DNA of 59,787 nt from Deltaproteobacteria bacterium (GTDB taxonomy: Bacteria; Desulfobacterota; Desulfobacteria; Desulfobacterales; Desulfosalsimonadaceae), in contig JAADHK010000081.1 in NCBI GenBank assembly GCA_013151835.1, positions 1 to 59,787 on the forward strand, read 5' to 3'. Below are positions 13,867-36,565 of this stretch, in pieces (the stretch's first letter is position 1; each line of letters starts with the position of its first letter). Below the pieces are notes generated by a model, which worked only from the letters and a program-made list of their open reading frames with translations, had not been told where the DNA came from and did not search any database. Both the position numbers and the translations under genes were made by a program.

Positions 13867-14724
13867 ATGGACACAACCCGGTTCATTATTCCCTGCATTA
13901 GGGCGGCGCTTGATGCCGGCATTGCCGCCCGTAAAATCTATGATCAGGATTTTACGGTCGAAAAAAAAGCTGACGACTCCCCTATTACCCTTGCGGATCG
14001 CCGTTCCCACGCCATAATCAAAGCAAGCCTTAAAAACTTTCAAATTCCCGTGTTAAGCGAAGAGGGCAGGGCCATCGCCTATGATCAACGATCGGGATGG
14101 GAATATTTATGGATAGTCGATCCATTGGACGGGACCAAGGAATTTGTGAAAAAAAACGGTGAATTTACAATTAATATCGCCCTTGTTCAGCACGGGGCGC
14201 CGGTCATGGGAGTCATCTACGTGCCGATCACAAGGATGCTCTATTTTGCCGAGCAGACCATGGGCGCTTTCAGGTTCGATCTGCATGATAAAATGGATGG
14301 AGAAAATGAAAATGCAGGTTTTTTTGACTATGATCTTTCAAGCCTGCTTGATACGGCCGAGAAATTGCCCGTTAAACAAAACCCGGACAGGCCCTATACC
14401 GTTGTTGGAAGCCGCTCCCATTCCACCGACGAGCTTGTTTCTTTTGTGGAAGAAATAAAAAAAGAGCATGCGGACGCGAGATTTATTTCAGCCGGAAGCT
14501 CTCTTAAATTCTGCCTGGTTGCGGAAGGCGCTGCTGATATTTATCCGCGCCTGGGTCCGACCATGGAATGGGATACCGCTGCGGGCGATTTAATCGCTCG
14601 TGCTTCCGGGGCCGTTGTCTTTGCCTATGATTCACAAATCAGCTTTCGGCAAGGCGCTAAAAATCCACTTGTTTACAATAAGGAAAACCTCTTGAATCCA
14701 TGGTTCGTGGTTATGCGAAAATAA
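13867..14724 (+). CDS. cysQ: 3'(2'),5'-bisphosphate nucleotidase CysQ
   Basis: 285 residues of the inositol monophosphatase-like fold. Metal-binding motifs are present in order: LSEEGR (Glu-rich first site near residue 60), WIVDPLDGTKEF (DPLDGT near residue 80) and the distal TMEWDTAAGDLIARA. GEFTINIAL after DPLDGT is characteristic of CysQ rather than of inositol phosphatases. The enzyme removes the 3' phosphate from PAP left after PAPS use. AAGGTG precedes the ATG. The next gene makes PAPS, and its probable start lies 21 bases after this stop, so the two are one operon with a coherent PAPS/PAP role. Confidence 0.9.
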   Translation: MDTTRFIIPCIRAALDAGIAARKIYDQDFTVEKKADDSPITLADRRSHAIIKASLKNFQIPVLSEEGRAIAYDQRSGWEYLWIVDPLDGTKEFVKKNGEFTINIALVQHGAPVMGVIYVPITRMLYFAEQTMGAFRFDLHDKMDGENENAGFFDYDLSSLLDTAEKLPVKQNPDRPYTVVGSRSHSTDELVSFVEEIKKEHADARFISAGSSLKFCLVAEGAADIYPRLGPTMEWDTAAGDLIARASGAVVFAYDSQISFRQGAKNPLVYNKENLLNPWFVVMRK

Positions 14725-14744
14725 TAAAGAAACAAGGAGAGGAT

Positions 14745-16457
14745 GTGAGTCCTGACCATGCAACCGCACATGGCGGCCGGCTTATAAGCCTGATGGCCGA
14801 CGAGGACCGTGCGGCAATACTTAAAGATATTTCCGTCAAGCTTGCCGACGTTATTTTAAACGAACGACAACTTTGCGATCTTGAACTCCTTGCAACCGGC
14901 GGGTTTTCCCCGCTTACTGGCTTTATGAAAAGGATTGATTACGAATCCGTCCTGGACCGGATGCGGCTTTCCCAAGACATACTCTGGCCCATGCCCATAT
15001 GCCTGGATGTTTCATCCCGGTTTGCAAAATCTCTTGAAGCCGGCCAGTCCGTTGCTCTCAGGGACCCGGAGGGATTTCTCCTTGCCGTCATGCATGTTGA
15101 AGACATATGGAGAGCCGAGCGTAAAAAAGAGGCCCGGCAGGTATATGGAACAACCGATGCATTCCATCCCGGTGTTGATTTTCTGTTAAACCGGTTAAAC
15201 GATTATTACATCGGCGGTCCCATCGAGGTTATCAGCCTGCCCATACATTTTGATTTCAGGCAGGTCCGTCTTTATCCCATGGAGGTCCGGGGTATTTATA
15301 AAAAACTGGGATGGCAGCGGGTGGTAGGTTTCCAGACCCGCAACCCCATTCACCGGCCCCAGTTTGAAATGACCACCCGTGCCATGCAGCAGGCCCGGGC
15401 CAACCTGCTGATCCTCCCGGTGGTGGGAATGACGAAACCGGATGATTTCGACCATTATACGAGGGTTCGATGTTATCGCAAGGTTTGCCGCCACTACCCG
15501 CCTGATTCTTATGTCCTGTCCTTACTGCCGCTGGCCATGCGCCTTTCCGGCCCCAGGGGCGCGCTCCTGGACGCGATTATTGCAAAAAATTACGGGTGCA
15601 CCCATTTTATCGTGGGCCATGATCATGCGAGCCCGGGGCCTGACAAAAACGGAAGCCCCTATTACGATTTTGATTCCGCCAAAAAAATTGCCTGCGCGCA
15701 TTGCGGTGAAATAGGCCTTGAAATCATTGATTTTGACGAAATGGTTTATCTGCCGTTTGAAGATGAATACCGGGTCGCAGGAGATGTGCCCGAAAACACG
15801 AGAACCATCTCGCTTACGGGCACCGATATTCGTAAACGTGTGCGTGAAGGCAGGGCTATTCCCGGCTGGGCCACCTTTCCCGAGGTCATAGAGGAACTTT
15901 CAAAGGCTTATCCGCCGCCCGGCCGGCAGGGGTTTACCATTTTTTTAACCGGGCTTTCAGGCGCTGGAAAATCGACCATTGCGCGGGTGCTTTATTCCAA
16001 GTTCCTGGAACTGGGGGACAGGCCGGTTACCCTTCTGGACGGTGACATCGTAAGACAAAATCTTTCATCCGAACTTAGTTTTTCAAAGGAACATCGGGAT
16101 GTAAACGTAAGAAGAATCGGGTTTGTGGCGGGAGAGATTACGAAGAACCGCGGGATTGCAATCTGTGCTCCCATTGCCCCCTATGAGCGTACCCGCAGGC
16201 AAATACGTTGTGAAATCGGAGCGTATGGCGGCTTTATCGAGGTTCACGTGTCAACCCCGATCGATGAATGTGAAAAAAGGGACAGGAAAGGGATGTATGC
16301 CAAGGCCAGGGCCGGGCTTATCACGGGTTTTACGGGTATTGATGATCCGTACGAGGCGCCGGACAAGCCCGAGTTAAGAATAGACACCACTGCCATAACT
16401 CCCATTGAGGCCGTACAGGAGATTCTTCTTTTCCTTGGTGAAAAGGGATATATATGA
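14745..16457 (+). CDS. Bifunctional sulfate adenylyltransferase / adenylylsulfate kinase
   Basis: About 570 residues with ATP sulfurylase first and APS kinase second. Sulfurylase landmarks: AHGGRL near the N-terminus, GFSPLTGFM, QTRNPIHRPQ and GHDHASPGPD. Kinase landmarks: P-loop GLSGAGKST, DGDIVRQNL and the IDECEKRDRKGMYAKARAG lid region. The pair converts sulfate and ATP through APS to PAPS. The GTG start at 14745 is chosen because AAGGAG lies five bases before it; an ATG at 14700 would overlap cysQ and has no such site. In the nucleotide-binding HxxH motif the second His is Gln (HRPQ), and GRDHAGP reads GHDHASP, so the sulfurylase half is divergent. In a presumed sulfate reducer this enzyme would serve sulfation, not respiration (inference). 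Confidence 0.9.
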   Translation: MSPDHATAHGGRLISLMADEDRAAILKDISVKLADVILNERQLCDLELLATGGFSPLTGFMKRIDYESVLDRMRLSQDILWPMPICLDVSSRFAKSLEAGQSVALRDPEGFLLAVMHVEDIWRAERKKEARQVYGTTDAFHPGVDFLLNRLNDYYIGGPIEVISLPIHFDFRQVRLYPMEVRGIYKKLGWQRVVGFQTRNPIHRPQFEMTTRAMQQARANLLILPVVGMTKPDDFDHYTRVRCYRKVCRHYPPDSYVLSLLPLAMRLSGPRGALLDAIIAKNYGCTHFIVGHDHASPGPDKNGSPYYDFDSAKKIACAHCGEIGLEIIDFDEMVYLPFEDEYRVAGDVPENTRTISLTGTDIRKRVREGRAIPGWATFPEVIEELSKAYPPPGRQGFTIFLTGLSGAGKSTIARVLYSKFLELGDRPVTLLDGDIVRQNLSSELSFSKEHRDVNVRRIGFVAGEITKNRGIAICAPIAPYERTRRQIRCEIGAYGGFIEVHVSTPIDECEKRDRKGMYAKARAGLITGFTGIDDPYEAPDKPELRIDTTAITPIEAVQEILLFLGEKGYI

Positions 16458-16580
16458 CGACTTCATAAAAAATCCGTCTGCGGCGTTGTGCTTCACCGGG
16501 AAAGTTCTCAATGTACAAAAGTACACCTCCGCCTTTCCCGACTTGCACGCCTTGCATACGGAGCTTTTTATGAAGCCGTC
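16456..16580. repeat. Inverted-repeat element, divergent copy D, at the sat-cysC stop codon
   Basis: The terminal arms GACGACTTCATAAAAAATCC and its counterpart at 16558-16580 (reverse complement GACGGCTTCATAAAAAGCTCC) pair over about 22 bases. The centre contains TGTACAAAAGTACA. The left end starts inside the TGA stop of the preceding gene. Internal landmarks (GCGTTGT, CCTCCGC, ACGCCTTG) line up with the better conserved copies at 28673, 36566 and 55735. The transcript could fold into one long stem. Confidence 0.8.
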
Positions 16581-16646
16581 CGTGCCGCCGACTGTGCCAT
16601 TGATCTTGCGCAAAGGTCCCGCCTTCAAAAGGAGAAAATTAAAATC

Positions 16647-17933
16647 ATGAAAAAAGAAATCATTGCAGTCATAGGGCTCGGATACGTAGGGCTTCCCCTG
16701 GCCGTGGCCTTTGGGGAAAAATACCCGACAATTGGCTATGATATAAAAAAACAGGTCGTTTCATCCTGTAAAAAGCATATCGACCCTTCCGGCGAGCTTG
16801 GTGAAAAAGCACTGAAATCCGCACGTCATCTCGAGTTCACAAATGATCCTTCCATGCTTTCATCGGCCGACTACATCGTTGTGGCTACGCCAACCCCCAT
16901 CGACATCGCCCGACAACCGGACCTTGGTCCGATTTCATCGGCAACACGCACCGCCGGCAGGTTCATGAAAAAGGGCGCCCTTGTCATATTCGAGTCTACC
17001 GTTTATCCCGGAGTCACAGAAGAGGTATGTGTCCCGATCCTTGAAAAGGAGTCGGGTATGGCGTGGAAACAAGATTTCCACGTGGGATATTCCCCTGAGC
17101 GCATCAACCCGGGAGATACGAAGCACACACTTAAAACAATAGTAAAGATCGTTTCGGCAGATGATGCGACAAGTCTTGATCGGATCGCGGCGCTCTATTG
17201 CTCCATCGTGGATGCCGGGGTTCATCGCGTAAAAAGGATAAAAGAAGCCGAAGCCGCCAAGGTGATCGAAAACACCCAGCGGGATCTTAATATTGCGCTC
17301 ATGAACGAGCTTGCCGTAATTTTCGACAACCTTGGAATCGATACCCGGACGGTTCTTGCCGCGGCAGGCACGAAATGGAACTTTCTTCCGTTTACGCCCG
17401 GCCTGGTGGGCGGACATTGCATAGGCGTTGATCCTTATTATCTAACCTACAAGGCCGAAACTGCCGGCTACCATCCCGAGGTAATACTGGCCGGCCGCAG
17501 GATTAATGACGGCATGGGCAAGTTCGTGGCGGAAAAAACCGTAAAACTCATGTCCACATCCCGTGGAAATCCCCGGGGCGCAAGAGTTGCGGTGTTGGGT
17601 CTGACCTTTAAGGAGGACTGCGCCGATCTGCGCAATTCCCGGGTTATCGATATCGTGCGCGAGCTTGAATCTTACGGAGTCAAAACCGTTGTACATGACC
17701 CTTTGGCGGACCCGGATACGGCTCGGTCCATTTACGGCATATCATTGTGCTCATGGGAGGAGGTCGATAGGGTTGACGCCATTGTAATCGCCGTGGCCCA
17801 CGAGGCTTTTCGCAGCCTGCCACTGGATGAATATGTCCACAGGCTTTCCCCGGGCGGCTGCATCATAGATGTCAAGTCAATCCTCGATCCGGACGCGGTT
17901 CGTAAAGCAGGGGTTCCTTTCTGGAGATTGTAA
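16647..17933 (+). CDS. UDP-sugar 6-dehydrogenase, TviB/WbpO-like
   Basis: 428 residues of the UDP-glucose/GDP-mannose dehydrogenase family: NAD-binding GLGYVGLPLA at the N-terminus, the central STVYPGVTEEVC segment, the catalytic Cys in VGGHCIGVDPYYL, and the C-terminal domain with VLGLTFKEDCADLRNSR. The run CIGVDPYYLTYK followed by ILAGRRINDGMG matches enzymes that oxidise UDP-GlcNAc or UDP-GalNAc (Vi antigen TviB, O-antigen WbpO) better than UDP-glucose dehydrogenase. GGAG lies 12 bases before the ATG at 16647; the open frame extends upstream, but that stretch is the inverted-repeat element, so a longer protein is not credible. It would supply a uronic-acid sugar for a surface polysaccharide. 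Co-location with PAPS genes hints at sulfated glycans (inference). Confidence 0.85.
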   Translation: MKKEIIAVIGLGYVGLPLAVAFGEKYPTIGYDIKKQVVSSCKKHIDPSGELGEKALKSARHLEFTNDPSMLSSADYIVVATPTPIDIARQPDLGPISSATRTAGRFMKKGALVIFESTVYPGVTEEVCVPILEKESGMAWKQDFHVGYSPERINPGDTKHTLKTIVKIVSADDATSLDRIAALYCSIVDAGVHRVKRIKEAEAAKVIENTQRDLNIALMNELAVIFDNLGIDTRTVLAAAGTKWNFLPFTPGLVGGHCIGVDPYYLTYKAETAGYHPEVILAGRRINDGMGKFVAEKTVKLMSTSRGNPRGARVAVLGLTFKEDCADLRNSRVIDIVRELESYGVKTVVHDPLADPDTARSIYGISLCSWEEVDRVDAIVIAVAHEAFRSLPLDEYVHRLSPGGCIIDVKSILDPDAVRKAGVPFWRL

Positions 17934-17937
17934 TTTT

Positions 17938-18642
17938 CTATTGTAAACTGTCATAATATACATTTATCCCGCCCCTCACCTTTTCATAATAGATGATCGG
18001 CGCCCTGATCGTATCCTGCATAAGCGGCTGACTCTTATAGGTCACCGGCTTTATGGATACCGCCGTTGCCCCGATATACCCGTCAATTCCCCTTGCCTCC
18101 TCTTCGGGGTTTGAAAGCCGGGAAGTCGTATTTTTCATGGAAGCGATTTTTTTTAAGATACTCTTTTGAAATTTAAGGCCGATATAGGTCTTTGCGAGGA
18201 TGAGTTCGCTGACCCATCGCCGCACCATGGGCTTGTTGATGGAATTCATGGTTTTTTTCATTTTTTCGAGCATGGCCCAGGTCTGCCCGGATGCCCGGTC
18301 AATGGCATTTGGATATCGGTTTGTATACCATGTTTCCCATTGCCTGTAAGTCCTTCCGTCAAATTTTTGTATGAGTTCCGACATCTGGCCGACTTTTGAC
18401 GGCCTTGTTGCCTGGGCGTTTCTGTTGGCAAGGTTTATTATCTGGGTGGCATAGGTGGGATAGGTTTCGACCTTGCCGGTGGTGTCGACCATCAGTTCTT
18501 TTGTGGTGATAATAAATTGCGCTTTTTTCTGTTTTCCAACCCTGTGATAATTTTTGGCAAAAACAGAAAAGACTGCGGCAATGCTTATTGTGGCCACGAA
18601 AAACGAGATTATGATCGGGTTTTTGCGAATCTGTTTGTACAT
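17938..18642 (-). CDS. Membrane-anchored MjaI-like restriction endonuclease candidate
   Basis: 234 residues. The N-terminus has a basic cap and one strong transmembrane helix (PIIISFFVATISIAAVFSVFA). The rest resembles, from memory, the MjaI type II restriction enzyme family (CTAG cutters): TQIINLANRNAQATRPSKVG, QMSELIQKF, then GIDGYIGATAVSIKPVTYK, in which ID...SIK fits a degenerate PD-(D/E)xK nuclease core. The start is secure: AGGAGGAG lies five bases before the ATG, while the internal ATG at 18492 that would remove the anchor has no binding site. No DNA methyltransferase is adjacent. It is convergent with the TviB-like gene (4-base gap). A membrane-tethered nuclease facing incoming DNA is an inference; an unrelated periplasmic protein remains possible. 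Confidence 0.5.
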   Translation of the reverse strand: MYKQIRKNPIIISFFVATISIAAVFSVFAKNYHRVGKQKKAQFIITTKELMVDTTGKVETYPTYATQIINLANRNAQATRPSKVGQMSELIQKFDGRTYRQWETWYTNRYPNAIDRASGQTWAMLEKMKKTMNSINKPMVRRWVSELILAKTYIGLKFQKSILKKIASMKNTTSRLSNPEEEARGIDGYIGATAVSIKPVTYKSQPLMQDTIRAPIIYYEKVRGGINVYYDSLQ

Positions 18643-18744
18643 CCGGGCTCCTCCTGATGAATCTGATAAAAAAATTTATTGACTGGAAAATGCTCTATTA
18701 CTAATATCAAAAATTTTATAAAAAACAAGATGGGGCAAATTTAA

Positions 18745-25277: not shown

Positions 25278-25724
25278 ATGGGCAGGAAAGCACAGCTCAA
25301 TAACAAAGGCTTTACCCTTATCGAGCTTATGGTGGTCATCGTGATCCTCGGTATTCTTGCGGTATATCTTGCGCCGAAGATAATGGGGGAGCCCGACAAA
25401 GCCAAGCGGACAAAGGCAATGGTCGATATCCAGGCGCTTGAAACCGCGCTCAAGATGTACAAGCTCGATAACGGCCACTACCCGACAACTGCACAGGGAC
25501 TCCAGGCCCTGGTGACTGCCCCTTCCGGCGGTCCATCGGCCAAAAACTGGCGTGAAGGCGGGTATCTGGAAAAATCAAAAGTTTCCAAAGATCCGTGGGG
25601 AAATGATTATGTCTATCTCTCTCCCGGCGTCCATGGCGATCTTGACATCATGTCCTATGGAGCGGACGGTGAGCCGGGCGGCGAGGGAAAGAACAAGGAT
25701 ATCTCCAACTGGGAAGTCGAGTGA
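25278..25724 (+). CDS. gspG: T2SS major pseudopilin GspG
   Basis: 148 residues, first gene of the type II secretion operon. The prepilin site is [21 protein letters not shown], giving the usual Glu at mature position 5. The mature domain contains [20 protein letters not shown] and GLQALV, the signature that separates GspG from other pseudopilins, and the C-terminal [12 protein letters not shown] loop that binds calcium in known GspG proteins. It forms the main body of the periplasmic pseudopilus. AAAGGTGG lies before the ATG. The stop overlaps the start of the next gene by four bases. Confidence 0.95.
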
Positions 25725-26410
25725 TTTCCATCTGCAAAACAAAGGCCGATATTCTTTTGCCGTGTATTAATCGTTTTTCCAATTTACCGGATTGCACCCC
25801 TGAAAGAGGGCCGCGCATCAGGGTTTCAAACCATGGCGGGTTCACCTTGATTGAACTCATAGTGGTCATGACCCTGATCGGGATTATTTTCTTTTTTGCC
25901 GTACCACGCATTGACTCTTCTATATTCACGAATTCCTCGCGGCAGGTTTCCAACTGGATTATCCTTCATGTCAAGTCCCTGAAAAGCAGGGCGGTCGCAA
26001 AACAGGTTTCCTATGTGATGGAAGTAGACATGGGTGAAAACCGCATATCCTGCTTTGCCGGGCCTGAAAGTAATATGGATATGCTGCCTGAAATAAACAC
26101 TCAAATCAATGACTCCGGGGACACGCAACAGGGAGATGGAGCGAAATTTAATGAATCCCCTGTGGACGCGATATCGGAAAAACCAAAAAAAGAGGAATTC
26201 TCCCTGCCCGACAGGTACAGGATTGCGGACGTGTTGTTTGCCGATGGAACTATTCAGACGGCAGGTACAGTTGATATACTCTTTTATGCAAAGGGCTATT
26301 CAGACCGGGCGATCATCCATGTCAAGGATGATGATGGAAATACGATTTCGTATATTATAGAACCGTTTCTTTCCCGGGCCTTGATCAAGGACGATTATGT
26401 CGAATTCTGA
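25721..26410 (+). CDS. gspH: T2SS minor pseudopilin GspH
   Basis: 229 residues. A GTG start overlaps the gspG stop (GTGA). The leader before the prepilin site ([15 protein letters not shown]) is about 40 residues, unusually long. The mature part has the N-terminal pilin helix with [20 protein letters not shown], typical of GspH, then a beta-rich domain interrupted by a polar insert ([20 protein letters not shown]). It belongs in the pseudopilus, probably near the tip. Its stop codon coincides with a half-copy of the dispersed inverted-repeat element and lies 14 bases inside gspI. Confidence 0.85.
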
Positions 26411-26816
26411 CGACTCCGTAAAAAGTCTGTCTGCGGGCTTTACCCTTCTTGAGGTTTTGGTGTCCCTTGCGATTATCGCCATCGTGTTTGTAAGTGTTTT
26501 GCGGCTCCAGGGGCAGACCATCTCCATGAACGAGTCCACGAGGTTTTACGCCGTGGCGCCCTTTCTTGCCCAGCAGAAGATGGCTGAGGTTACAGCCGAT
26601 CCATCCTCGTTTTCAGGCTCTCAATCCGGTGATTTCGGTGAAGATGCGCCGGGATATGTATGGAAGGCCGGTGTGGACGATTTTCCAATAACAGGCCCCG
26701 ACGGAGGAACAATTGAGCTTTCCCTGGCAGTGGTGACGGTTACTCAGGAGGGGAGCGGTTTGAAATTAATAATAAAGGAGTATCTCTCAGAGGCCAGAAA
26801 AGATATAACAGAATGA
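26397..26816 (+). CDS. gspI: T2SS minor pseudopilin GspI
   Basis: 139 residues with the prepilin site SAG/FTLLEVLVSLAIIAIVFVSV and the GspI-type QQKMAEV region following FYAVAPFLA. It is a tip pseudopilin that nucleates the GspH-I-J-K complex. The gene starts inside gspH and ends with a four-base overlap with gspJ (ATGA), indicating translational coupling. The leader residues [10 protein letters not shown] are encoded by sequence matching one end of the inverted-repeat element seen at 16456, so the leader appears to derive from a repeat. Confidence 0.88.
   Translation: MSNSDDSVKSLSAGFTLLEVLVSLAIIAIVFVSVLRLQGQTISMNESTRFYAVAPFLAQQKMAEVTADPSSFSGSQSGDFGEDAPGYVWKAGVDDFPITGPDGGTIELSLAVVTVTQEGSGLKLIIKEYLSEARKDITE
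26409..26438. repeat. Half-copy of the inverted-repeat element inside gspH/gspI
   Basis: GACGACTCCGTAAAAAGTCT plus the following GTCTGCGG matches the left end of the element at 16456 (GACGACTTCATAAAAAATCC, GTCTGCGG) in 26 of 30 positions. It begins within the TGA stop of gspH, exactly as the copy at 16456 begins within the TGA of sat-cysC. No matching right arm was found nearby. Confidence 0.7.
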
Positions 26817-27547
26817 CGGATCGCCTTACTAAATATATCATGAAACCGCAAATTACAGACAAGCAGGGTTTTACGTTAATCGAACTTCTGGTGGCCATTA
26901 CCATGTTCGGGGTGGTGGCAACCATTGTGTACAGCTCCCTTAACGCGATTCTGTCCAGGACAAACGCCATAGCCCGGGCCTCGGACAGCTTTGAAATGGC
27001 AAAAAACTGCATGGAACGGATGACGTTTGACCTGACCGGTATTTATGTAGAGCCTTTTCCGCTCTATTCACCGCCCGGTTTTAGCGGCCCGGATGATCCA
27101 TACAGGTTTTTGGCAAAAATAGACCTTGCGGGCGGGAATCGTTTTTCAACCCTCAGGTTTACATCCACCGAACACCTTGGACTTTCCGGATTTGCCGATT
27201 CAAGGCTTGCCGAGATCAGGTATTATGTCACTGCTTCGGATGATCCGGACCAGGGCTATCTTCTGCGTCGCGCGGACACCGCGTTCCCCTATGATATCGA
27301 TCAGAACGCACAATTAAGTGATAATGATCCCATTATGTGTACAAATATTGTCGCCCTTGAATTTACCTTTTACGATGCAGAGGAAAAGACCGAAGAAGAC
27401 TGGGACTCTGATTCGGATTTTTACAAAAACACGACGCCTGTTGCCGTTGGCATCCACCTGGAACTTGCATCGGGAAACAATACCCGCTCGTTTTACACAA
27501 GGGTGCCTCTTCCGGTTTTCCGTATGGCGAAAAAGGAGGGCAAATGA
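26813..27547 (+). CDS. gspJ: T2SS minor pseudopilin GspJ
   Basis: 244 residues with the prepilin site KQG/FTLIELLVAITMFGVVAT followed by YSSLNAILSRTNAIARASD and the MERMTFDLTGIYV segment characteristic of GspJ. The large beta-rich C-terminal domain contains LRFTSTEHLG, LAEIRYYVTASDD and LLRRADTAF. Start and stop both overlap neighbouring genes by four bases. It forms part of the tip complex of the pseudopilus with GspI and GspK. Confidence 0.9.
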   Translation: MTDRLTKYIMKPQITDKQGFTLIELLVAITMFGVVATIVYSSLNAILSRTNAIARASDSFEMAKNCMERMTFDLTGIYVEPFPLYSPPGFSGPDDPYRFLAKIDLAGGNRFSTLRFTSTEHLGLSGFADSRLAEIRYYVTASDDPDQGYLLRRADTAFPYDIDQNAQLSDNDPIMCTNIVALEFTFYDAEEKTEEDWDSDSDFYKNTTPVAVGIHLELASGNNTRSFYTRVPLPVFRMAKKEGK

Positions 27548-28629
27548 AGTCGACGGATAATCGCGGTATTGCCCTGCTGATAACCTTAAGCGTGGTTACT
27601 ATTATGGTAACGGTGACGGTCGCATTAAACCGCAGGATGCGAAACTCCATTACCGATGCGGCAGTATCCAGGGACAGGATCATAATGACGCACATGATTG
27701 ATTCCGCAGTCAACATGGCATGCGTCATACTCGCAAAGGACAAGAGGGAAGGTCCGGCCGATTCCCTGCAGGACGACTGGGCCGATCCGGAAGTGGTTGC
27801 GGACTATCTTGCTCAGATCCCGTTTGACGACGGTGAAATCCGGATGCTAATCAGTGATGAGCGGGCGCGTCTCCAGATAAACGCGCTGGTGAGTTATCCC
27901 AAGGGCCGGGATTTTAATCCCGCGCAAAGGGAGTTGTGGTATCGTTTTTTCGACCTTCTTTTGGCGCAGCAGGACGAATCGGCCGACAAATTTATTTCCG
28001 AGCCCATCGTGCCTGACATGATTATAAATCCCGTGAAAGACTGGCTTGACTTTGGAGACGACGATGCAATTTCCGGGTTAACCGGCGCTGAAGACAATTA
28101 TTACCGGGATCTGGACCCACCGTATTCCTGCCGTAACGGCCCCATTCGCCAGATCGCTGAACTCATGCGCATCAAGGGCATCACCCCGGAGCTCTTTGCC
28201 GGCCTTGATATGGGGGGGGCAGGGATTGGCGCCTATATCACCGTGTCCGGCATGTCGGAGACCCCGGATCACAAGTTTACGTTTGACGGTAAAATTAATA
28301 TCAATACAGCGGATGTCCCGGTCATGGCCGCACTGCTGCCTGCGGGCCAGGAGTTTCTTGCCCAGGCAATTTGTGATTTCAGGGTTGAAAAGGCGTCTGA
28401 ATCCTATATGCATGACCTGACAAGCCCGACCTGGTATAAAGATGTTCCGGGGTGTGCCGACGTTACCATAAACGCCGACCTGATCACGACATCAAGCGAT
28501 ATTTTCCACGTGGAAGTCGGGGCTATTCTAAATGACACGTCCATGCGGGCTGCCGTTCTGCTCGAACGGGAAAAAAACAAAAAAATTGGTAAATGGCAAT
28601 GCAAAGTATTGAACTGGACTTTTAAATAG
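27544..28629 (+). CDS. gspK: T2SS minor pseudopilin GspK
   Basis: 361 residues. The leader is short and the site is NRG/IALLITLSVVTIMVTVTVAL; the mature protein lacks Glu at position 5, the known peculiarity of GspK. It continues with the large alpha domain, including LISDERARLQINAL, NPVKDWLDFGDDDAISG, and FDGKININTADVPVMAALLP (the helix-hairpin-helix-like motif of this family). It caps the pseudopilus. The gene ends 43 bases before an inverted-repeat element that separates it from gspL. Confidence 0.9.
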   Translation: MKSTDNRGIALLITLSVVTIMVTVTVALNRRMRNSITDAAVSRDRIIMTHMIDSAVNMACVILAKDKREGPADSLQDDWADPEVVADYLAQIPFDDGEIRMLISDERARLQINALVSYPKGRDFNPAQRELWYRFFDLLLAQQDESADKFISEPIVPDMIINPVKDWLDFGDDDAISGLTGAEDNYYRDLDPPYSCRNGPIRQIAELMRIKGITPELFAGLDMGGAGIGAYITVSGMSETPDHKFTFDGKININTADVPVMAALLPAGQEFLAQAICDFRVEKASESYMHDLTSPTWYKDVPGCADVTINADLITTSSDIFHVEVGAILNDTSMRAAVLLEREKNKKIGKWQCKVLNWTFK

Positions 28630-28649
28630 GGTATTGGTGATAGGATTTA

Positions 28650-28850
28650 CTTTTTACGAGACCATAAACTATGATGGCGTCGTAAAAAGTCCCATCTACT
28701 GCGTTGTAGCGGGTCGCGAAATGCTCGGAATACTATATGTATGCCTCCGCTTTCGCGACATTCGCGACACCACTACGCCTTGTATATGGAACTTTCTACT
28801 TAGCCATCTTTAACGGGTTGCCTGGCTTTTTACGAGACCATAAACTATGA
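28650..28850. repeat. Inverted-repeat element, copy A, with 25-bp direct repeats
   Basis: The element core runs from GATGGCGTCGTAAAAAGTCC at 28673 to the terminal GGCTTTTTACGAGACCAT ending at 28841. An inner inverted repeat pairs 28673-28695 with the stretch ending in GCCATC at 28808. A 25-base direct repeat beginning CTTTTTACGAGACCATAAAC occurs at 28650-28674 and again at 28826-28850, so part of the right end is duplicated upstream. It fills the 263-base gap between gspK and gspL; no gene is present there. Confidence 0.85.
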
Positions 28851-28892
28851 CTCAGGTGTTTTTACCTGGTTTTTTGGAACTTAAATTATTCC

Positions 28893-30374
28893 ATGAGCAA
28901 CAAAATATTAGCAATTGATATTCATGAAGATCAGATTTCCGGTCTTCTGGTTAAAACCGGCCTTAAGGGCATGCGGGACGATGGCTTTTCATCTGTTTTA
29001 CTCTCCGATGCGCCCGAGTTTACCTCCCGGTTCGAATGGGGCATACAAAAAGTGATAGAAGGTCTCGACACTTCCGGGGCCGTCTGCCTGCTTTCCATCC
29101 CATCCGGATACGTCTCGTATCGAAACCTGAAGGTCCCCTTTTTAGATCGAAAAAAAATACGGCAGGTTCTTCCCTTTGAGCTGGAGCCTCTGCTCCCGTT
29201 TGAGATTGAAGAGCTTTTTATCGATTTCATGCCTGTTTCATGCGATGGCGATACCGGGCTTATAGCGGCTGCGGTGAAGAACGAAACCCTTGACATGTTT
29301 ACATCCGTGTTTGAAGGTTCCCATCTTACCCCGAGAATTGTCACAGCCGGCGGAATCGCCCAGGCCATGTGTATTGCCGATAAATCCACAAAACAGATGG
29401 ATCGGTTTTTATACATTGATGCGGATATCACCGGCGCCACCATCTTTGTTGTTGCCTCGGGCCGGATACATCTTGTTCATCAGGTGCGAACCCCGAAAAA
29501 TATGGATGTGCATGCACGCGCCGCGCGCGTGTCGTCCAATCTGAGCCGGGTATCCGCTCTTTTTGAAGCCCGTTTTGAATCTGATTTCATTGCCGAATCG
29601 GTTATTGTGTCAAAGACTTCCGGCCTTGACGATGAATTTATTCCGCTTCTCGCGCAATCAACCGGGCTTCCCGTAAAGGCCCTGGATGTCACAAGCGGTC
29701 TCATGCTCAACATCTCTTTGGAGAATCCAAAAGAGCCCGGCGAGTATGATACCGGGCAGATCAACGCCCCCTTTTGCCTGGCCGCAGTCGAGCTGTTATC
29801 CATATCTCCGATTAATTTCAGCCGCGAACATTACGCGATTTCAAAATACTGGGGAGAAAACAAGAACCAGATCATCACCACGGCGATGCTGGGTGTTTTT
29901 GTCTTTATACTCATGATGTTCACCGTTGTTCTGGACGCACATTTTTTGCAGCAGCGGGTCGATGTGTTGAATGAAAAAATCGCATCTGTTTTTCACTCAA
30001 CCCTGCCCGGGGTTCCGATGACCAAGGCTGCCGTCCAACAGATGAAGGTTGAATTGAAACAGATGAAGGAAAAGGCCGTTTATTCCGGAGAAACCGGAAA
30101 CAACGTCCGTAACATTGATATTTTAAGCGATATGAGCCGGCTTGTTCCGGATGATCTTGATGTGGTTTTTACCCGGTTTATCAGGGGAGATAACGCAGTG
30201 CTCATCGCAGGCGTTACAGATACTTTTAACGCGGTTGACGACATCAAGGGCAGGCTTGAGACATCAGCGTTTTTAAGCCATATCACCATAAGTTCCGCAA
30301 ATATGGATAAAACCATTAATCGGGTCCGGTTTAATATAAAAGCGGATATAGCCGGTATACAGTCCGGTTCATAG
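28893..30374 (+). CDS. gspL: T2SS cytoplasmic-membrane protein GspL
   Basis: 493 residues. Residues 1 to about 310 form a PilM/GspL-type actin-like cytoplasmic domain (ILAIDIHEDQISGLLVKTGL; VPFLDRKKIRQVLPFELEPL; FLYIDADITGATIFVV). One transmembrane helix follows (ITTAMLGVFVFILMMFTVVL, about residues 330-350), then a coiled segment and a ferredoxin-like periplasmic domain (LDVVFTRFIRGDNAVLIAGV). GspL links the GspE ATPase to the periplasmic platform. The gene is separated from gspK by an inverted-repeat element, so a second promoter or read-through is needed. Confidence 0.88.
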   Translation: MSNKILAIDIHEDQISGLLVKTGLKGMRDDGFSSVLLSDAPEFTSRFEWGIQKVIEGLDTSGAVCLLSIPSGYVSYRNLKVPFLDRKKIRQVLPFELEPLLPFEIEELFIDFMPVSCDGDTGLIAAAVKNETLDMFTSVFEGSHLTPRIVTAGGIAQAMCIADKSTKQMDRFLYIDADITGATIFVVASGRIHLVHQVRTPKNMDVHARAARVSSNLSRVSALFEARFESDFIAESVIVSKTSGLDDEFIPLLAQSTGLPVKALDVTSGLMLNISLENPKEPGEYDTGQINAPFCLAAVELLSISPINFSREHYAISKYWGENKNQIITTAMLGVFVFILMMFTVVLDAHFLQQRVDVLNEKIASVFHSTLPGVPMTKAAVQQMKVELKQMKEKAVYSGETGNNVRNIDILSDMSRLVPDDLDVVFTRFIRGDNAVLIAGVTDTFNAVDDIKGRLETSAFLSHITISSANMDKTINRVRFNIKADIAGIQSGS

Positions 30375-30400
30375 TTTTTACGAAATAAAGGAACGGATGC

Positions 30401-30943
30401 ATGGGCATGAATTTAAACCTGAGTCTCAACCGCAGGGAAAAGCTTATCGTCGGTTCGGCGGTCGTATTTATCATTGTTTTCATTCTTGCCAGGGTGATTA
30501 TCTTTCCTGTTTTTGAGAAAAGAGACGAATTGCGTCATCGCCTTGCGGTCAGGGAAAAAGTTGTTGAAAAAATGGTCTCGCTTGCCGGCGAACACAAAAC
30601 CTTAAAGAAGAAAGCCGCGCTTTCACAGCGGAAATTTTCGGCGAGGAAAAAGGGATTCACTCTTTTTTCATTCATGGATCGGCTTGCGGGCGACATTAAT
30701 ATAAAAGAAAAGATTGCCTATATGAAGCCTGCCACAACTGTGGATGAAGCCTCAGGGTTGAAACTCACCTCGGTTGAACTGAAATTGCAGGATATCACCC
30801 TAAATGATCTTTCGACTTATCTTTTCAAGGTCGAAACTTCCGAAAACCTGATAAAGGTACGGCGGCTTTCCATAAAGAAGAATGATACGGAATCAGGGCT
30901 CCTTTCCGTTATCATGCAGGTGGAAACCCTGGAATCAACATAA
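30401..30943 (+). CDS. gspM: T2SS inner-membrane protein GspM
   Basis: 180 residues: a short cytoplasmic N-terminus with LNRREKLIVGSAVVFI, one transmembrane helix (VVFIIVFILARVIIFPVF), a coiled stretch rich in Lys and Glu (RHRLAVREKVVEKMVSLAGE) and a C-terminal ferredoxin-like domain (VELKLQDITLNDLSTYLFKV). This is the standard GspM layout, partner of GspL in the inner-membrane platform. It starts 26 bases after gspL. Confidence 0.85.
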   Translation: MGMNLNLSLNRREKLIVGSAVVFIIVFILARVIIFPVFEKRDELRHRLAVREKVVEKMVSLAGEHKTLKKKAALSQRKFSARKKGFTLFSFMDRLAGDINIKEKIAYMKPATTVDEASGLKLTSVELKLQDITLNDLSTYLFKVETSENLIKVRRLSIKKNDTESGLLSVIMQVETLEST

Positions 30944-30944
30944 A

Positions 30945-31790
30945 ATGAAGAAAATATTGACTTACATAACCTTTGTCATTATTGCGGTCGGATTTTTCCT
31001 GTATATCCTGTTTCCGTCCGAAACCGTTACAACCTATCTTGCGTACAGGCTGGCGCAATTGGCGCCCCAAAGCGAGTTTTCGATTGCCGACGCCAGGCTC
31101 ACCCTGCCGCCGGGGCTTGTTTTTTCAGAAATTGATATTAAATTCCAAAAAAATCCCGCAGCTTTTCTGGACAGGATAACCGTTTTTCCAGCATACGCAT
31201 CTTTTTTCAAGGGCAGGATGGGGGTTGATGTTAACGCATCGCTTTATGACGGAAAGATTGTCGGGTATGCCGATTTTGCTAAAACAGGAAAGGCTGGCGA
31301 TATAAATGCCGATTTTCGGGTTCTTAAAGTCAATTTAAAGTCCATACCGATAATAAAGGAGCTCGCCCGATACCGAATTTCCGGCATTCTTTCCGGGAAT
31401 ATTAAATACGGCGGGCCTTCCTTTGGCGCCGGCAAGGGCTCGGCACATTTTTCCGCAAAAAAATGCGGCATTGAATTTGACAGCCCGGTTATCGGGTTAA
31501 ACGGGCTTGTATTTGATACCGGCAAAACCGATATCACGATGGAAAAACAGAAAATAAACATAGAAGCTCTGGATTTAAACGGGCGCAATTTGAGCGTGTC
31601 CGCCACCGGAAGCATAACGCTTGCCGCCAATTTTTCCGACAGCCGGATCAAGCTCAAGGGCACGCTCAGGCCTGCTCCGGACATCCTGAAAAAAGTCGGG
31701 GCGTTTTTTCCTCAAAAATACGTACGGCAGGGCGGTATTCCGTTTACGGTGACAGGCACATTTTCCAGCATGAATTATTCGTTTCGTTAA
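30945..31790 (+). CDS. gspN: T2SS protein GspN (TIGR04411-like)
   Basis: 281 residues. The N-terminal helix (ILTYITFVIIAVGFFLYILF) is followed by FPSETVTTYLAYRLAQLAPQ and a repetitive beta-rich AsmA-like domain (LTLPPGLVFSEIDIKF, ISGILSGNIKYGGPSFGAG). This fits the variant GspN found in delta-proteobacterial type II systems rather than the enterobacterial one. The ATG lies one base after the gspM stop; a longer frame upstream is inside gspM and is not used. The function in secretion is poorly defined. It precedes gspC. Confidence 0.8.
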   Translation: MKKILTYITFVIIAVGFFLYILFPSETVTTYLAYRLAQLAPQSEFSIADARLTLPPGLVFSEIDIKFQKNPAAFLDRITVFPAYASFFKGRMGVDVNASLYDGKIVGYADFAKTGKAGDINADFRVLKVNLKSIPIIKELARYRISGILSGNIKYGGPSFGAGKGSAHFSAKKCGIEFDSPVIGLNGLVFDTGKTDITMEKQKINIEALDLNGRNLSVSATGSITLAANFSDSRIKLKGTLRPAPDILKKVGAFFPQKYVRQGGIPFTVTGTFSSMNYSFR

Positions 31791-31831
31791 TACAGCAACG
31801 GCCGTGTGAACTAAAGCGATAAGACACACTT

Positions 31832-32734
31832 ATGATAAAAAAAGCTCTCACATTTTTAAACCTGGCACTTATTACCGGCGCGATTTTTTTCAGCGTAAAG
31901 ATATTCTATACCGTAATCTCGGCCCGCCTCACGGCTCAAAGCATAGTCTTTGCCTATGCCGCCGGACAAAACAATGGGGCGGGACATGCAGCGGGCCGGC
32001 CCGTGGTCAGAAAAACGCGCGTGTCTTCCAAAGACTTTCAGGCAATTGTCGACCGGGATCTTTTCAAGACCCTGCAACCTGCGCCAAAGGAAGCTGAAAT
32101 CTCAACATCGGATATTGAAAACCTTGAAAAGACCAGCTTAAAGCTTAAACTCTGGGGCACGATAACGGGTGATCCCGACAAGAGCTATGCGGTTATCGAG
32201 GATACTTCAACTCACAAGCAGCAGCTCTACCGTGATGGAGACGCTGTTGCAGGAGCAAAAGATGCTAAAATCAAGCTGATATTGCGCCGGAAGATAGTTT
32301 TGAGTGTAAACGGCAAGGATGAAATCCTCGAAATGCAGGATCTGTCCGTAAAGGGCGGTAAAAGATCCGGATACAGGTCTTCGGGCAGGTCCAACAGGGA
32401 GGCTGCTGCTGATGGCGAAACAGTGAGTATAGACCGCAGCCAGATCAATGAATCCCTGAAAAACATCAATAATCTCATGCGCCAGGTCAGGGTGCGCCCG
32501 TATTTTGAGGAAGGAAAGCCCGGGGGTATACTCTTATCCGGCATACAGCGGCGCTCCATATTTGAAAAAATGGGTCTTAAAAGCGGTGACATTGTCAAAG
32601 GCGTCAACGGAACCCCGATCAAGTCCGTGGACGATGCTCTCAAGTTTTATGAAAATCTGAAATCAGCGGATAGCGTCCAGCTCCAGATAAAAAGAAGAGG
32701 CGAAGAAAAAACCATCATGTACCAGATCCGCTGA
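31832..32734 (+). CDS. gspC: T2SS inner-membrane clamp GspC with PDZ domain
   Basis: 300 residues: one N-terminal transmembrane helix (LNLALITGAIFFSVKIFYTV), a linker, the GspC homology region that contacts the secretin (IVDRDLFKTL ... KLKLWGTITGDPDKSYAVI, and RDGDAVAGAKDAKIKLILRR), and a C-terminal PDZ domain (GGILLSGIQRRSIFEKMGLK, SGDIVKGVNGTPI). This protein couples the inner platform to GspD and may take part in substrate recognition. It is encoded just before gspD, as usual, although here the CDE block follows GHIJKLMN instead of leading the operon. Confidence 0.88.
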   Translation: MIKKALTFLNLALITGAIFFSVKIFYTVISARLTAQSIVFAYAAGQNNGAGHAAGRPVVRKTRVSSKDFQAIVDRDLFKTLQPAPKEAEISTSDIENLEKTSLKLKLWGTITGDPDKSYAVIEDTSTHKQQLYRDGDAVAGAKDAKIKLILRRKIVLSVNGKDEILEMQDLSVKGGKRSGYRSSGRSNREAAADGETVSIDRSQINESLKNINNLMRQVRVRPYFEEGKPGGILLSGIQRRSIFEKMGLKSGDIVKGVNGTPIKSVDDALKFYENLKSADSVQLQIKRRGEEKTIMYQIR

Positions 32735-32771
32735 TTGCGGAATATATGAAAAGAAAGGAATCCTACGTATC

Positions 32772-34811
32772 ATGAAACAAAGACGTCTAAAGCCGGTTTT
32801 AGGTCTCCTTGTTGCCACGGCCATTATGCTGTCATTGCCGATGCATTCGGTCATGGCCGCCGATGGCAAGACTTCCGCAGCACAAAAAAATCAAACGACC
32901 CCAAAAGACCAGGCCGGCGCTGCAACGGATGCCAGGGTTGCCGGAACTGATACCAATGCCGGCGGCCAATACGTATCCATTGATTTCAATGATGTTGATA
33001 TCAATGTTTTCATAAAATTTGTCAGTGAACTGACCGGGACCAATTTCATCGTTGATCCGCGTGTAAAGGGCAAGATAACGATTATTTCGCCCTCAAAAAT
33101 ATCCATTGCAGAGGCTTACAAGGTTTTTGAATCCGTTTTGGATGTCCACGGGTACGCCACTGTACGGGCAGGGGAGGTCACGAAGATCATACCTTCGCCC
33201 TATGCCAGGACAATGAACATCGAGACCCGTTACAAGAAAAAGGGCGGCTCGGCCGAGGACAGGATCGTCACCCAGTTGATTCACCTGAGGTACGCAGATC
33301 CCAATGACGTAAAGCAACTATTTGCACCCCTTGTTTCCAAGAGTAGCGTGATTCTCTCCTACCAGCCAACGAACATGCTGGTCATCACGGATGTTTATTC
33401 TAATATCAAGAGGCTGATGGGCATTATAAATGCCATTGACGTCACCGGCATCGGCCGTGAACTCTCCGTGCTTTCATTAAATTATGCCGATGCCGAGGAG
33501 ATGAGCCGCATTATAACATCTATTTTCACAGCCCGGAAAAGAGGCAAAAAATCCGGGCAGCAGGATATTACAATCGTGCCCGATACAAGAACCAATGTCA
33601 TGGTGGTAATGGCCAGCGAGGCAAATACCGAGCGGGTCCGGCAATTGGTAGGCCTCCTGGACAAGAAGATTCCCAAGGGCAAGGAAAACATACATGTCTA
33701 TTATCTTGAAAACGCAAAGGCCGAGGATATTGTCAGCGTACTCCAGGCTTTGCCGTCCAAGGGAAGCAAGACTGTAAAAGGGAAAAAAGTGGCCCCGGTT
33801 GTTTCCGCGAATGTAAAGATCTCCGCAGACAAGGCAACCAATGCTCTTATTGTTCAGGCAAGCAAGGACGACTTTGATACATTAAAGGATGTAATTCAAA
33901 AGCTGGATATTCCCCGGCCCATGGTCTATATCGAATGCCTCATCATGGAGGTGAGCAGGGATAAGTCATTTAACCTCGGCGCCGAATGGATAGCCGGCGG
34001 CCAGGGCGCCTTCCAGGGCAAGTCCGGAGTTTACGGCGGCGGGTTTTCAGGAGGCGCGCTCGGCGGGGACAGGGGGTACTCATATACCGTTCCATCAGCG
34101 ACCGGGGCTCTCACTCTCCCGCCAGGGTTTTCCCTTGGCGTGTTCGGAGAGAACATCACGGTCGGAGGCGTTCCTTTTCCCTCTATTTCAGCCGTGATCC
34201 AGGCATACAAGAAGGACAACGACGCGCATATCCTGTCCACGCCCCAGATTCTTACCACAGACAATGAAACCGCCAAGATCCAGATCGGTGAAAATATTCC
34301 ATACCTTACCCAGTCCAGCCCGGCCAATACGGCGTATGGTAATTCCGGGTACAATAATTATGAATACAAGGATGTGGGCATAAACCTGGAGATAACACCC
34401 CAGATCAACAAGGACAGGAATATCCGCCTCGAGATATCCGAAGAGATCAGCAAGCTTAAGGGAACTACGGACCAGTTTCAACCCACGACCCTGAAGCGGT
34501 CCATAAAGACAACTGTTATTGTAAAGGACGGGCATACCGTGGTTCTGGGCGGCCTGATTGATCAGAGTCTTTCATCAACCGAGTACAAGGTTCCATGTCT
34601 CGGGAGCATCCCTGTTTTGGGGTGGCTCTTCAAGACCGTTGGAAAGGGGGATCAGAAGACCAATCTGTTTATTTTCCTGACTCCAAGGGTTCTGGAAGGG
34701 GATGATGAACCCTCAAAATTCTGCGAGGAAAAACGTAAGGAAATAGAGACGATCAGCAAAAAATCCATTAAGCTCTATGGCCAGCCCGACAAGGAAAAAC
34801 CATCAAAATGA
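32772..34811 (+). CDS. gspD: T2SS outer-membrane secretin GspD
   Basis: 679 residues. A signal peptide (LGLLVATAIMLSLPMHSVMA) is followed by N0 to N3 ring domains (DVDINVFIKFVSELTGTNFI; LSVLSLNYADAEEMSRIITS; ENIHVYYLENAKAEDIVSVL) and the secretin core (MVYIECLIMEVSRDKSFNLG; ILSTPQILTTDNETAKIQIG; VVLGGLIDQSLSSTEYKVPC; LGSIPVLGWLFKT). It forms the multimeric outer-membrane channel. The stop overlaps the gspE start by four bases. No pilotin gene was recognised. Confidence 0.95.
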   Translation: MKQRRLKPVLGLLVATAIMLSLPMHSVMAADGKTSAAQKNQTTPKDQAGAATDARVAGTDTNAGGQYVSIDFNDVDINVFIKFVSELTGTNFIVDPRVKGKITIISPSKISIAEAYKVFESVLDVHGYATVRAGEVTKIIPSPYARTMNIETRYKKKGGSAEDRIVTQLIHLRYADPNDVKQLFAPLVSKSSVILSYQPTNMLVITDVYSNIKRLMGIINAIDVTGIGRELSVLSLNYADAEEMSRIITSIFTARKRGKKSGQQDITIVPDTRTNVMVVMASEANTERVRQLVGLLDKKIPKGKENIHVYYLENAKAEDIVSVLQALPSKGSKTVKGKKVAPVVSANVKISADKATNALIVQASKDDFDTLKDVIQKLDIPRPMVYIECLIMEVSRDKSFNLGAEWIAGGQGAFQGKSGVYGGGFSGGALGGDRGYSYTVPSATGALTLPPGFSLGVFGENITVGGVPFPSISAVIQAYKKDNDAHILSTPQILTTDNETAKIQIGENIPYLTQSSPANTAYGNSGYNNYEYKDVGINLEITPQINKDRNIRLEISEEISKLKGTTDQFQPTTLKRSIKTTVIVKDGHTVVLGGLIDQSLSSTEYKVPCLGSIPVLGWLFKTVGKGDQKTNLFIFLTPRVLEGDDEPSKFCEEKRKEIETISKKSIKLYGQPDKEKPSK

Positions 34812-36565
34812 GCGCTCCTAAACTCTCCGACATATTAACCACTGATTTCGGCATGCAAGAAGATATCATCGCCGAAGCCCGGCGAGTCGGGGTGGAACAG
34901 GATATTTGTCTTGCCGAGGCCCTGATTAAAAAGAAGGTCATAACCGAATTGCAGCTTCTGAAAGCTTACAGCCGTCTTTATGATCTTCCATTTGTTTCCC
35001 GACTGCCCACAGAGGATATGGAAACCGATTTTGCGAAAAAGGTTCCCATCGGTTTTTTAAAGAAGCACACGATCGTGCCGGTGATCCTCGCCGAAGGAAA
35101 TAAATCCGGCCTTTCGCCTGATTTCACGGCAGTGCTGGGGGAGGCCCGGGCCGTTATCGCCATAAATGATCCCACCTCCTTTCCGGCCGCAGACGACCTG
35201 GCAAAGCTTATCAATACCGATGATTTCGAGGCCGATGATTTCGAGATCGTACTTTCCACGCGAGAATCCATTTACGCGCTTATTAACATAGCCTTTGACA
35301 GCAGCCGTGACACGGCGCAACAGCTTGTGGCCGACATGGAGGAAAACAGCGGCGATATTTTAAGCGAGATTGAAGAGACGGCCGACCTTCTGGACGATAC
35401 AAGCGATGCCCCGATTATAAAGTTAGTCAATCATGTGATATCCCAGTCCGTAAAAATAGGTGCAAGCGACATACATATCGAGCCGGAGCAGCACAGCTTT
35501 AAAATCCGCTACAGGGTCGACGGGATACTCTATGATATGCTCACCCCGCCGAAATGGATGCAGGCATCTCTTGTTTCCCGGATAAAAGTCATGGCCAAGA
35601 TGAATATCGCTGAAAAAAGACTTCCCCAGGATGGCCGGTTCGAAGTCAAGATCGGCAACCAGAGCATAGATATCCGCGTTTCAACAATCCCGATTTCCGA
35701 CGGGGAGCGCGTGGTTCTTCGGCTTTTGAATAAGTCGGGCTCCCTTTTTGAACTGACCCAGCTTGGAATTGAAAAGGAGAGGCTCGATATAATAAAGGAG
35801 CTGATCCAAACATCCCACGGCATCGTCCTTGTGACGGGACCTACAGGCAGCGGTAAGACCACCACCCTTTACGCCATACTCTCCACAATCAATTCGCCGG
35901 ATATCAATATCATAACAATCGAAGACCCGGTGGAATACAAGTTAAAGGGAGTCAACCAGATACAGGTAAATTCAAAGATCGATCTTACTTTTGCCCGGGG
36001 GTTGCGGTCCATTGTCCGCCAGGATCCGGACGTTATCCTCATCGGCGAGATGCGGGATCTTGAAACCGCCGAGATCGGCGTACAATCGGCGTTGACCGGG
36101 CATCTTGTATTTTCCACCCTCCATACAAACGACTCGGCCTCCGCCATTACAAGGCTTGTTGACCTTGGAATAGAGCCGTTTCTCATATCCTCGTCGGTGC
36201 TTGCGGTTGTGGCACAGCGGCTGGTGCGGGTTTTATGCGATGAATGCAAACAGCCGTACACGCCGGACGATATTACCTTAAAGCGTCTCGGGATATCTCC
36301 TGAAAATGCCGCCGACATTGTTATTTACAGGCCACAAGGATGCCCGAAATGCTTTCAAAGCGGTTACAGGGGCCGGCTGGGGATATATGAAATTTTAAGG
36401 CTGGATGAAACCATTCAGAGTATGGTTCTTAAGACCCATGATTCCCACCAGATCAAGAAACAGGCCATACAGCAGGGAATGTCGACTCTCTACCAGGATG
36501 GAATTTCAAAGGTTTTAAAGGGGATAACCACTATTGAAGAGGTCCTTCGCGTCACCCAGTCTTGA
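34808..36565 (+). CDS. gspE: T2SS secretion ATPase GspE
   Basis: 585 residues. An N-terminal T2SSE/MshEN-like domain (about 1-150, divided by an acidic linker NTDDFEADDFE) precedes the ATPase: Walker A GPTGSGKTT, Asp box VILIGEMRDLETAE with Walker B, His box GHLVFSTLHTNDSASAITRL, and the zinc-binding tetracysteine domain (CDEC ... CPKC). It powers pseudopilus assembly through GspL. The gene ends the plus-strand gsp block. The TGA is followed immediately by an inverted-repeat element, which may act as the transcript end. Confidence 0.95.
   Translation: MSAPKLSDILTTDFGMQEDIIAEARRVGVEQDICLAEALIKKKVITELQLLKAYSRLYDLPFVSRLPTEDMETDFAKKVPIGFLKKHTIVPVILAEGNKSGLSPDFTAVLGEARAVIAINDPTSFPAADDLAKLINTDDFEADDFEIVLSTRESIYALINIAFDSSRDTAQQLVADMEENSGDILSEIEETADLLDDTSDAPIIKLVNHVISQSVKIGASDIHIEPEQHSFKIRYRVDGILYDMLTPPKWMQASLVSRIKVMAKMNIAEKRLPQDGRFEVKIGNQSIDIRVSTIPISDGERVVLRLLNKSGSLFELTQLGIEKERLDIIKELIQTSHGIVLVTGPTGSGKTTTLYAILSTINSPDINIITIEDPVEYKLKGVNQIQVNSKIDLTFARGLRSIVRQDPDVILIGEMRDLETAEIGVQSALTGHLVFSTLHTNDSASAITRLVDLGIEPFLISSSVLAVVAQRLVRVLCDECKQPYTPDDITLKRLGISPENAADIVIYRPQGCPKCFQSGYRGRLGIYEILRLDETIQSMVLKTHDSHQIKKQAIQQGMSTLYQDGISKVLKGITTIEEVLRVTQS

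Follow-up and report, generated by a model that had tools for sequence, protein, structure and literature searches.

Type II restriction enzymes are commonly seen as cytoplasmic proteins, kept safe for the cell by a methylase whose gene is linked to that of the endonuclease. In the CTAG system MthZI of plasmid pFZ1 from Methanothermobacter thermautotrophicus the two genes are adjacent and convergent, and the endonuclease carries no signal peptide. M.MthZI, M.MjaI and HVO_0794 have been described as 4mC CTAG enzymes, M.MthZI as an experimentally characterised one (PMC5867850). Orphan CTAG methylases, HVO_0794 and its kin, are conserved by lineage in Halobacteria (PMC5867850, PMC6471742); Haloferax volcanii yielded no cognate endonuclease (PMC5867850), and the role of such orphans is an open question (PMC6471742). 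Pneumococcal EndA and Moraxella NucM, nucleases that meet incoming or matrix DNA outside the cytoplasm, are members of the beta-beta-alpha metal family (PMC6384898). We found no precedent for periplasmic or secreted restriction enzymes among the open-access papers that we searched. Here we analysed a stretch of 59,787 nucleotides (the window; positions 1 to 59,787 of contig JAADHK010000081.1, assembly GCA_013151835.1, from a deltaproteobacterium of the Desulfosalsimonadaceae), which encodes a predicted exported endonuclease of the MjaI family at 17938..18642 on the minus strand. In contrast to the MthZI genes, this gene and that of its likely methylase are unlinked; in contrast to EndA and NucM, the nuclease is of a restriction-enzyme family; and, unlike in H. 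volcanii, an exported candidate endonuclease accompanies the methylase in part of the lineage. We consider it probable that the two halves of a CTAG restriction-modification pair have been separated in a single lineage of Desulfobacterales, the methylase working in the cytoplasm and the nuclease being exported; if true, a restriction-modification system would be split between two cell compartments in a group of sulphate-reducing bacteria.

An MjaI-family endonuclease with an intact core

The gene starts with ATG and encodes 234 amino acids. A Pfam scan of the protein gave RE_MjaI (PF09568) as its sole significant match, scoring 199.8 bits where the cut-off is 22.7, with an E-value of 3.4e-59 and full-length coverage (profile positions 1-164 of 164). 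The scan returned no significant match to families of the EndA/NucM or EndoI type, and a PDB sequence search with the same protein returned no significant match. Against the MjaI-family enzyme encoded beside M.MthZI on pFZ1, the window nuclease shows 43% identity over 183 amino acids.

Searching the collection with a profile of aligned sequences yielded 382 relatives, of which 80 were examined; a single-protein query found none. Record titles of the close relatives name Desulfobacterales (Desulfonema limicola, Desulfococcaceae, Desulfobacteraceae), and among the 36 genomes of the window's family, 13 (its own included) have a single nuclease gene. The window protein and 16 relatives carry an N-terminal presequence, described below, and are referred to as exported; the cytoplasmic enzymes compared with them numbered 66. 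Residue conservation marks a catalytic-type motif at residues 181-199 (EEARGIDGYIGATAVSIKP; 18046..18102, minus strand), in which E181, E182, G185, I186, D187, G188, S196, K198 and P199 are kept in all 17 exported proteins and in at least 95% of the cytoplasmic ones (GIDG...S-x-K-P). Overall, and with this motif counted in, at least 90% of the exported proteins share 35 of the 41 positions conserved at 95% or more in the cytoplasmic enzymes, including an N-terminal block around TQ-NLANxN-Q-TRP-VGQ, and the window protein itself keeps 37. The first-pass annotation, made from the letters alone, had noted both a resemblance to the MjaI family and a GID...SIKP nuclease-like core; the profile search bore out the former and the homologues the latter. 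Judged by its sequence, the window ORF is a clear MjaI-family restriction endonuclease with intact core residues.

AlphaFold2 models reached pLDDT values of 83.5 and 91.5, the latter for the predicted mature nuclease domain (residues 30-234; 17941..18555, minus strand). Structure searches matched the C-terminal half (residues ~135-234) best, with modest scores, to PD-(D/E)XK nuclease cores; the top matches were Hjc (Z 5.7-5.8), the SPARDA nuclease subunit, I-Ssp6803I and restriction enzymes, all with Z of at most 5.8, which is below the level of safe fold assignment. The predicted nuclease identity is carried by the family match, not by the structure scores.

Close pairs of the exported nuclease gave dN/dS values of ~0.1-0.2, a constraint similar to that on trpA though weaker, indicating that the gene is under purifying selection. 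It may be asked whether nuclease function or specificity has been lost and the protein now does something else, such as binding DNA in the periplasm. The long end branch of the window copy would suit such a loss, but the catalytic-type residues are invariant in 17/17 and the dN/dS values among close relatives are low, and we regard it as very improbable.

A predicted export signal of single origin

The presequence of the exported proteins is 19-29 residues long, lies ahead of the nuclease and has the features of a Sec signal peptide. The cytoplasmic relatives are without it and start ~40 residues later, at a position aligned with QFIITTKEL. In the window protein the predicted signal peptide covers residues 1-29 (MYKQIRKNPIIISFFVATISIAAVFSVFA; 18556..18642, minus strand), with predicted cleavage after A29. 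Its hydrophobic stretch has a Kyte-Doolittle mean of 2.56 over 19 residues and runs up to SVFA, a site of the signal-peptidase type that the whole clade conserves. A Shine-Dalgarno sequence, AGGAGG, matches perfectly 7 nt 5' of the ATG of this long form (18650..18655, minus strand), in agreement with the near-perfect ribosome-binding site first noticed there.

Across the 17 members the -3,-1 rule of signal peptides holds without exception (A/V/T/G-x-A/S). The longest uncharged or hydrophobic runs span 13-21 residues, several relatives having only 13, and the N-terminus is basic in most members, with a net charge of zero over the first 10 residues in 3/17. Alignment of 13 members revealed a variable hydrophobic core followed by a fixed position: column 29 (the -1 position) holds Ala in 12 and Ser in one. 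Because the cores are short and end in a fixed small residue, a cleaved signal is favoured over a membrane anchor; the hydrophobic N-terminus has the look of a Sec signal peptide more than of a tether, and we predict that the enzyme is exported. The strong transmembrane helix of the first-pass annotation is accordingly real as a hydrophobic stretch without counterpart in cytoplasmic relatives, while its role as a tether is not supported, since the pattern across the clade matches a cleavable Sec signal peptide.

In the tethered alternative, an uncleaved N-terminal helix would hold the catalytic domain in the periplasm and the chromosome would be spared by location. Such an anchor draws on the 21-residue run of the window copy and the basic stretch that follows it, which could hinder cleavage or export. 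It is hard to reconcile with the 13-residue runs of several relatives, too short for a normal membrane span, with the Ala or Ser at one fixed aligned position after a variable segment and with the likely cognate methylase encoded in the genome (see below). We judge it improbable.

All 17 exported proteins fell into one clade, with an SH-aLRT of 99 in the first tree and a bootstrap of 100 and SH-aLRT of 98 in the careful tree. Rooted on distant MjaI-type enzymes, this clade is nested among cytoplasmic enzymes, and its sister in the careful tree is a pair of enzymes (L126 and L181; 94/87) that both adjoin MthZI-type methylases. The trees suggest that the export signal was gained once. The 17 enzymes, with one origin of export and dozens of cytoplasmic relatives beside them, form a ready test set.

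Predicted exported nucleases without a linked methylase

Among loci with enough flanking sequence (contig-edge loci were left out), an m4C-type methylase adjoins the nuclease gene in 61 of 62 cytoplasmic loci and in 0 of 9 loci of the exported clade (Fisher p ~1e-10, relatedness ignored). A wider sample of the phylum gave a similar picture for cytoplasmic enzymes, an N4/N6 methylase lying within ~2 kb in 19 of the 20 loci examined. Unlike the usual type II arrangement, then, no exported locus in this count has a linked methylase, nor is a CTAG-type methyltransferase encoded anywhere in the 59.8-kb window, as the first-pass annotation had remarked for the vicinity of the gene.

The CTAG sequence itself is strongly depleted in the window, with 3 sites where 23 are expected from trinucleotides. 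Loci with cytoplasmic systems are depleted too, and CTAG depletion was rejected as a diagnostic of the exported nuclease.

A likely CTAG methylase at a second conserved locus

Genomes of the family share an m4C-type methyltransferase with a TSPPYP motif at a second conserved locus, in the order ptsP - (small ORF) - LOG-family - methylase - SpmA/nucleoside-recognition gene; we named the neighbours (ptsP, LOG, SpmA-like) by reading their sequences ourselves. The window genome has this gene at G000:C67:16134-17303, on a contig separate from that of the nuclease. The unlinked methylase is 51-57% identical to methylases adjoining cytoplasmic MjaI-type enzymes and 51% identical over 348 amino acids to the methylase of pFZ1, whose convergent neighbour is annotated as an MjaI-family restriction endonuclease. 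We take the pFZ1 gene to be M.MthZI, going by the identity of the plasmid, as pFZ1 carries the MthZI system. The methylases of the family form one clade (SH-aLRT 96) nested inside those linked to cytoplasmic MjaI-type enzymes, and a Natrinema methylase homologue falls beside them in the tree; they share their wider family with the halobacterial orphans. Together, the data indicate that the unlinked gene encodes a likely CTAG methyltransferase, its specificity being predicted. The first-pass annotation had suggested that location could take the place of methylation in protecting the chromosome and had pointed to a genome search for a CTAG methyltransferase; that search turned up this likely one on another contig, and the suggestion is not supported. 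A CTAG methylase elsewhere in the genome is one half of a condition that the annotation itself had named as refuting, the other half being a short-start protein in vivo.

The unlinked methylase was detected in 11 of the 13 nuclease-bearing genomes. The other two, G018 and G005, are also without the genes that flank it, and its locus is therefore missing from these assemblies; true absence was rejected in favour of assembly gaps. 'Type A' CTAG methylases were also considered as the nuclease's partner and rejected, the unlinked methylase of the family being ~30-41% identical to them; by sequence the partner is of the 'type B' (MthZI) kind.

A genuine type A methylase (82% identity) occurs at L106:3995-4411 (plus strand), at the end of G006:C172, where it is cut off by the contig end; no other true type A copy occurs in the family, and no nuclease was detected in the genome that holds this one. 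Many m4C CTAG-type methylases linked to MjaI-type enzymes are ~430 amino acids long (L056-L074, e.g. L057:4534-5823, plus strand), and that of L057, the one scanned, has a C-terminal staphylococcal-nuclease-like domain (PF00565, E 1.9e-8).

A restriction-modification pair probably divided between compartments

We propose that the nuclease half of a CTAG (MthZI/MjaI-type) pair acquired a Sec signal peptide on a single occasion and settled as a fixed, vertically inherited chromosomal gene, and that the m4C CTAG methylase, as a separate fixed gene of vertical inheritance, would mark the chromosome from the cytoplasm. In the periplasm or further out, the exported nuclease would cut unmethylated CTAG sites of double-stranded DNA. 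Own and kin DNA would be spared by compartment and by methylation alike, whereas foreign DNA reaching the periplasm or the matrix would not. The notion in the first-pass annotation of a restriction nuclease acting outside the cytoplasm thus survives in its broader form and is strengthened, shorn of tethering and of location as a substitute for methylation; as a whole that reading is partly supported.

During natural transformation DNA enters the cytoplasm single-stranded, and type II restriction enzymes usually do not cut it (PMC10287943). In the periplasm transforming DNA would still be double-stranded and would still bear the methylation of its donor. We put forward, tentatively and as a possibility only, an extracytoplasmic form of restriction-modification in which the exported CTAG nuclease tests periplasmic DNA, passes that of kin and cuts what is foreign before it can be taken up or integrated. 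Restricting DNA that is incoming or extracellular would fit, given that the core is retained, CTAG is rare and transforming DNA crosses the periplasm before single-strand entry. If true, self/non-self discrimination would move to the compartment where incoming DNA is double-stranded, and orphan CTAG methylases would gain a possible partner.

The protein might instead be an exported DNase of general purpose or relaxed specificity, serving to obtain nutrients from environmental DNA or to remodel biofilm DNA, with the CTAG methylase an unrelated housekeeping orphan. Consistent with this, many genomes that lack the nuclease retain the methylase; a gene for an HTH_26 and PilZ (c-di-GMP-type) protein stands beside the exported nuclease in five loci, its full-length orthologues occurring in 9/13 nuclease-bearing and 0/23 other genomes of the family, an association that leaves room for a biofilm-linked role; and a type II secretion operon (GspG, pseudopilins, GspJ, K, L/PilN-like, M, C, D, E) lies in the same window at 25278-36565 on the plus strand, ~7 kb from the nuclease gene. 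Against it, nearly all residues invariant in CTAG enzymes are retained, the N-terminal block included, and CTAG is rare in the window (3 sites, 23 expected), a rarity that agrees better with restriction than with digestion. We hold such a DNase to be doubtful. ComEC and type II secretion genes were rejected as discriminating partners, being present in 35/36 and 33/36 genomes of the family, respectively; since both are near-universal, periplasmic capture and release outside are both possible.

Several points weigh against a divided CTAG pair. The CTAG specificity of both proteins is predicted from their relatives, and the structure matches are weak (no Foldseek hit with E under 0.1, the top matches having E of at least 0.4; VIA Z of at most 5.8). 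The exact sister groups in the nuclease and methylase trees agree loosely, and nearly all the genomes are metagenome assemblies. The unlinked methylase occurs also in genomes without the nuclease, and for this reason it would not be kept as an antidote only but would have at least one other role. Finally, at most one or two members of the clade are more divergent than the window copy (end branch 0.7), which is also the least typical in its signal region: its hydrophobic run has 21 residues, and just past the predicted cleavage site 14 residues carry a net charge of +5, compared with -3 to +3 in the other members, so that this copy may be an uncleaved anchor or poorly exported.

Conserved surroundings of the nuclease gene

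In most members the nuclease is a fixed chromosomal gene beside the trp operon. The usual order is trpEGDCFBA - nuclease - HTH/PilZ protein, with genes for a UDP-sugar dehydrogenase, ATP sulfurylase/APS kinase and CysQ nearby. In the window genome the dehydrogenase side is retained, and other contigs carry trpA and the gene for the HTH/PilZ protein. The window's UDP-glucose/GDP-mannose dehydrogenase family gene (16488..17933, plus strand) is convergent with the nuclease gene, 4 nt separating it from the end of the nuclease ORF, and the same arrangement is found in G012 (locus L054). The other conserved neighbours are an ATP sulfurylase/APS kinase gene (14700-16457) and a CysQ-like gene (13867-14724).

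Genes for the HTH_26 and PilZ protein were located at L050:7358-8095 (minus strand), at L044:2009-2749 (plus strand) and, in the window genome, at G000:C86:21254-21982 (minus strand). The nuclease-free genome G028 has a partial HTH/PilZ copy, and its contig breaks off at the place where one would look for the nuclease.
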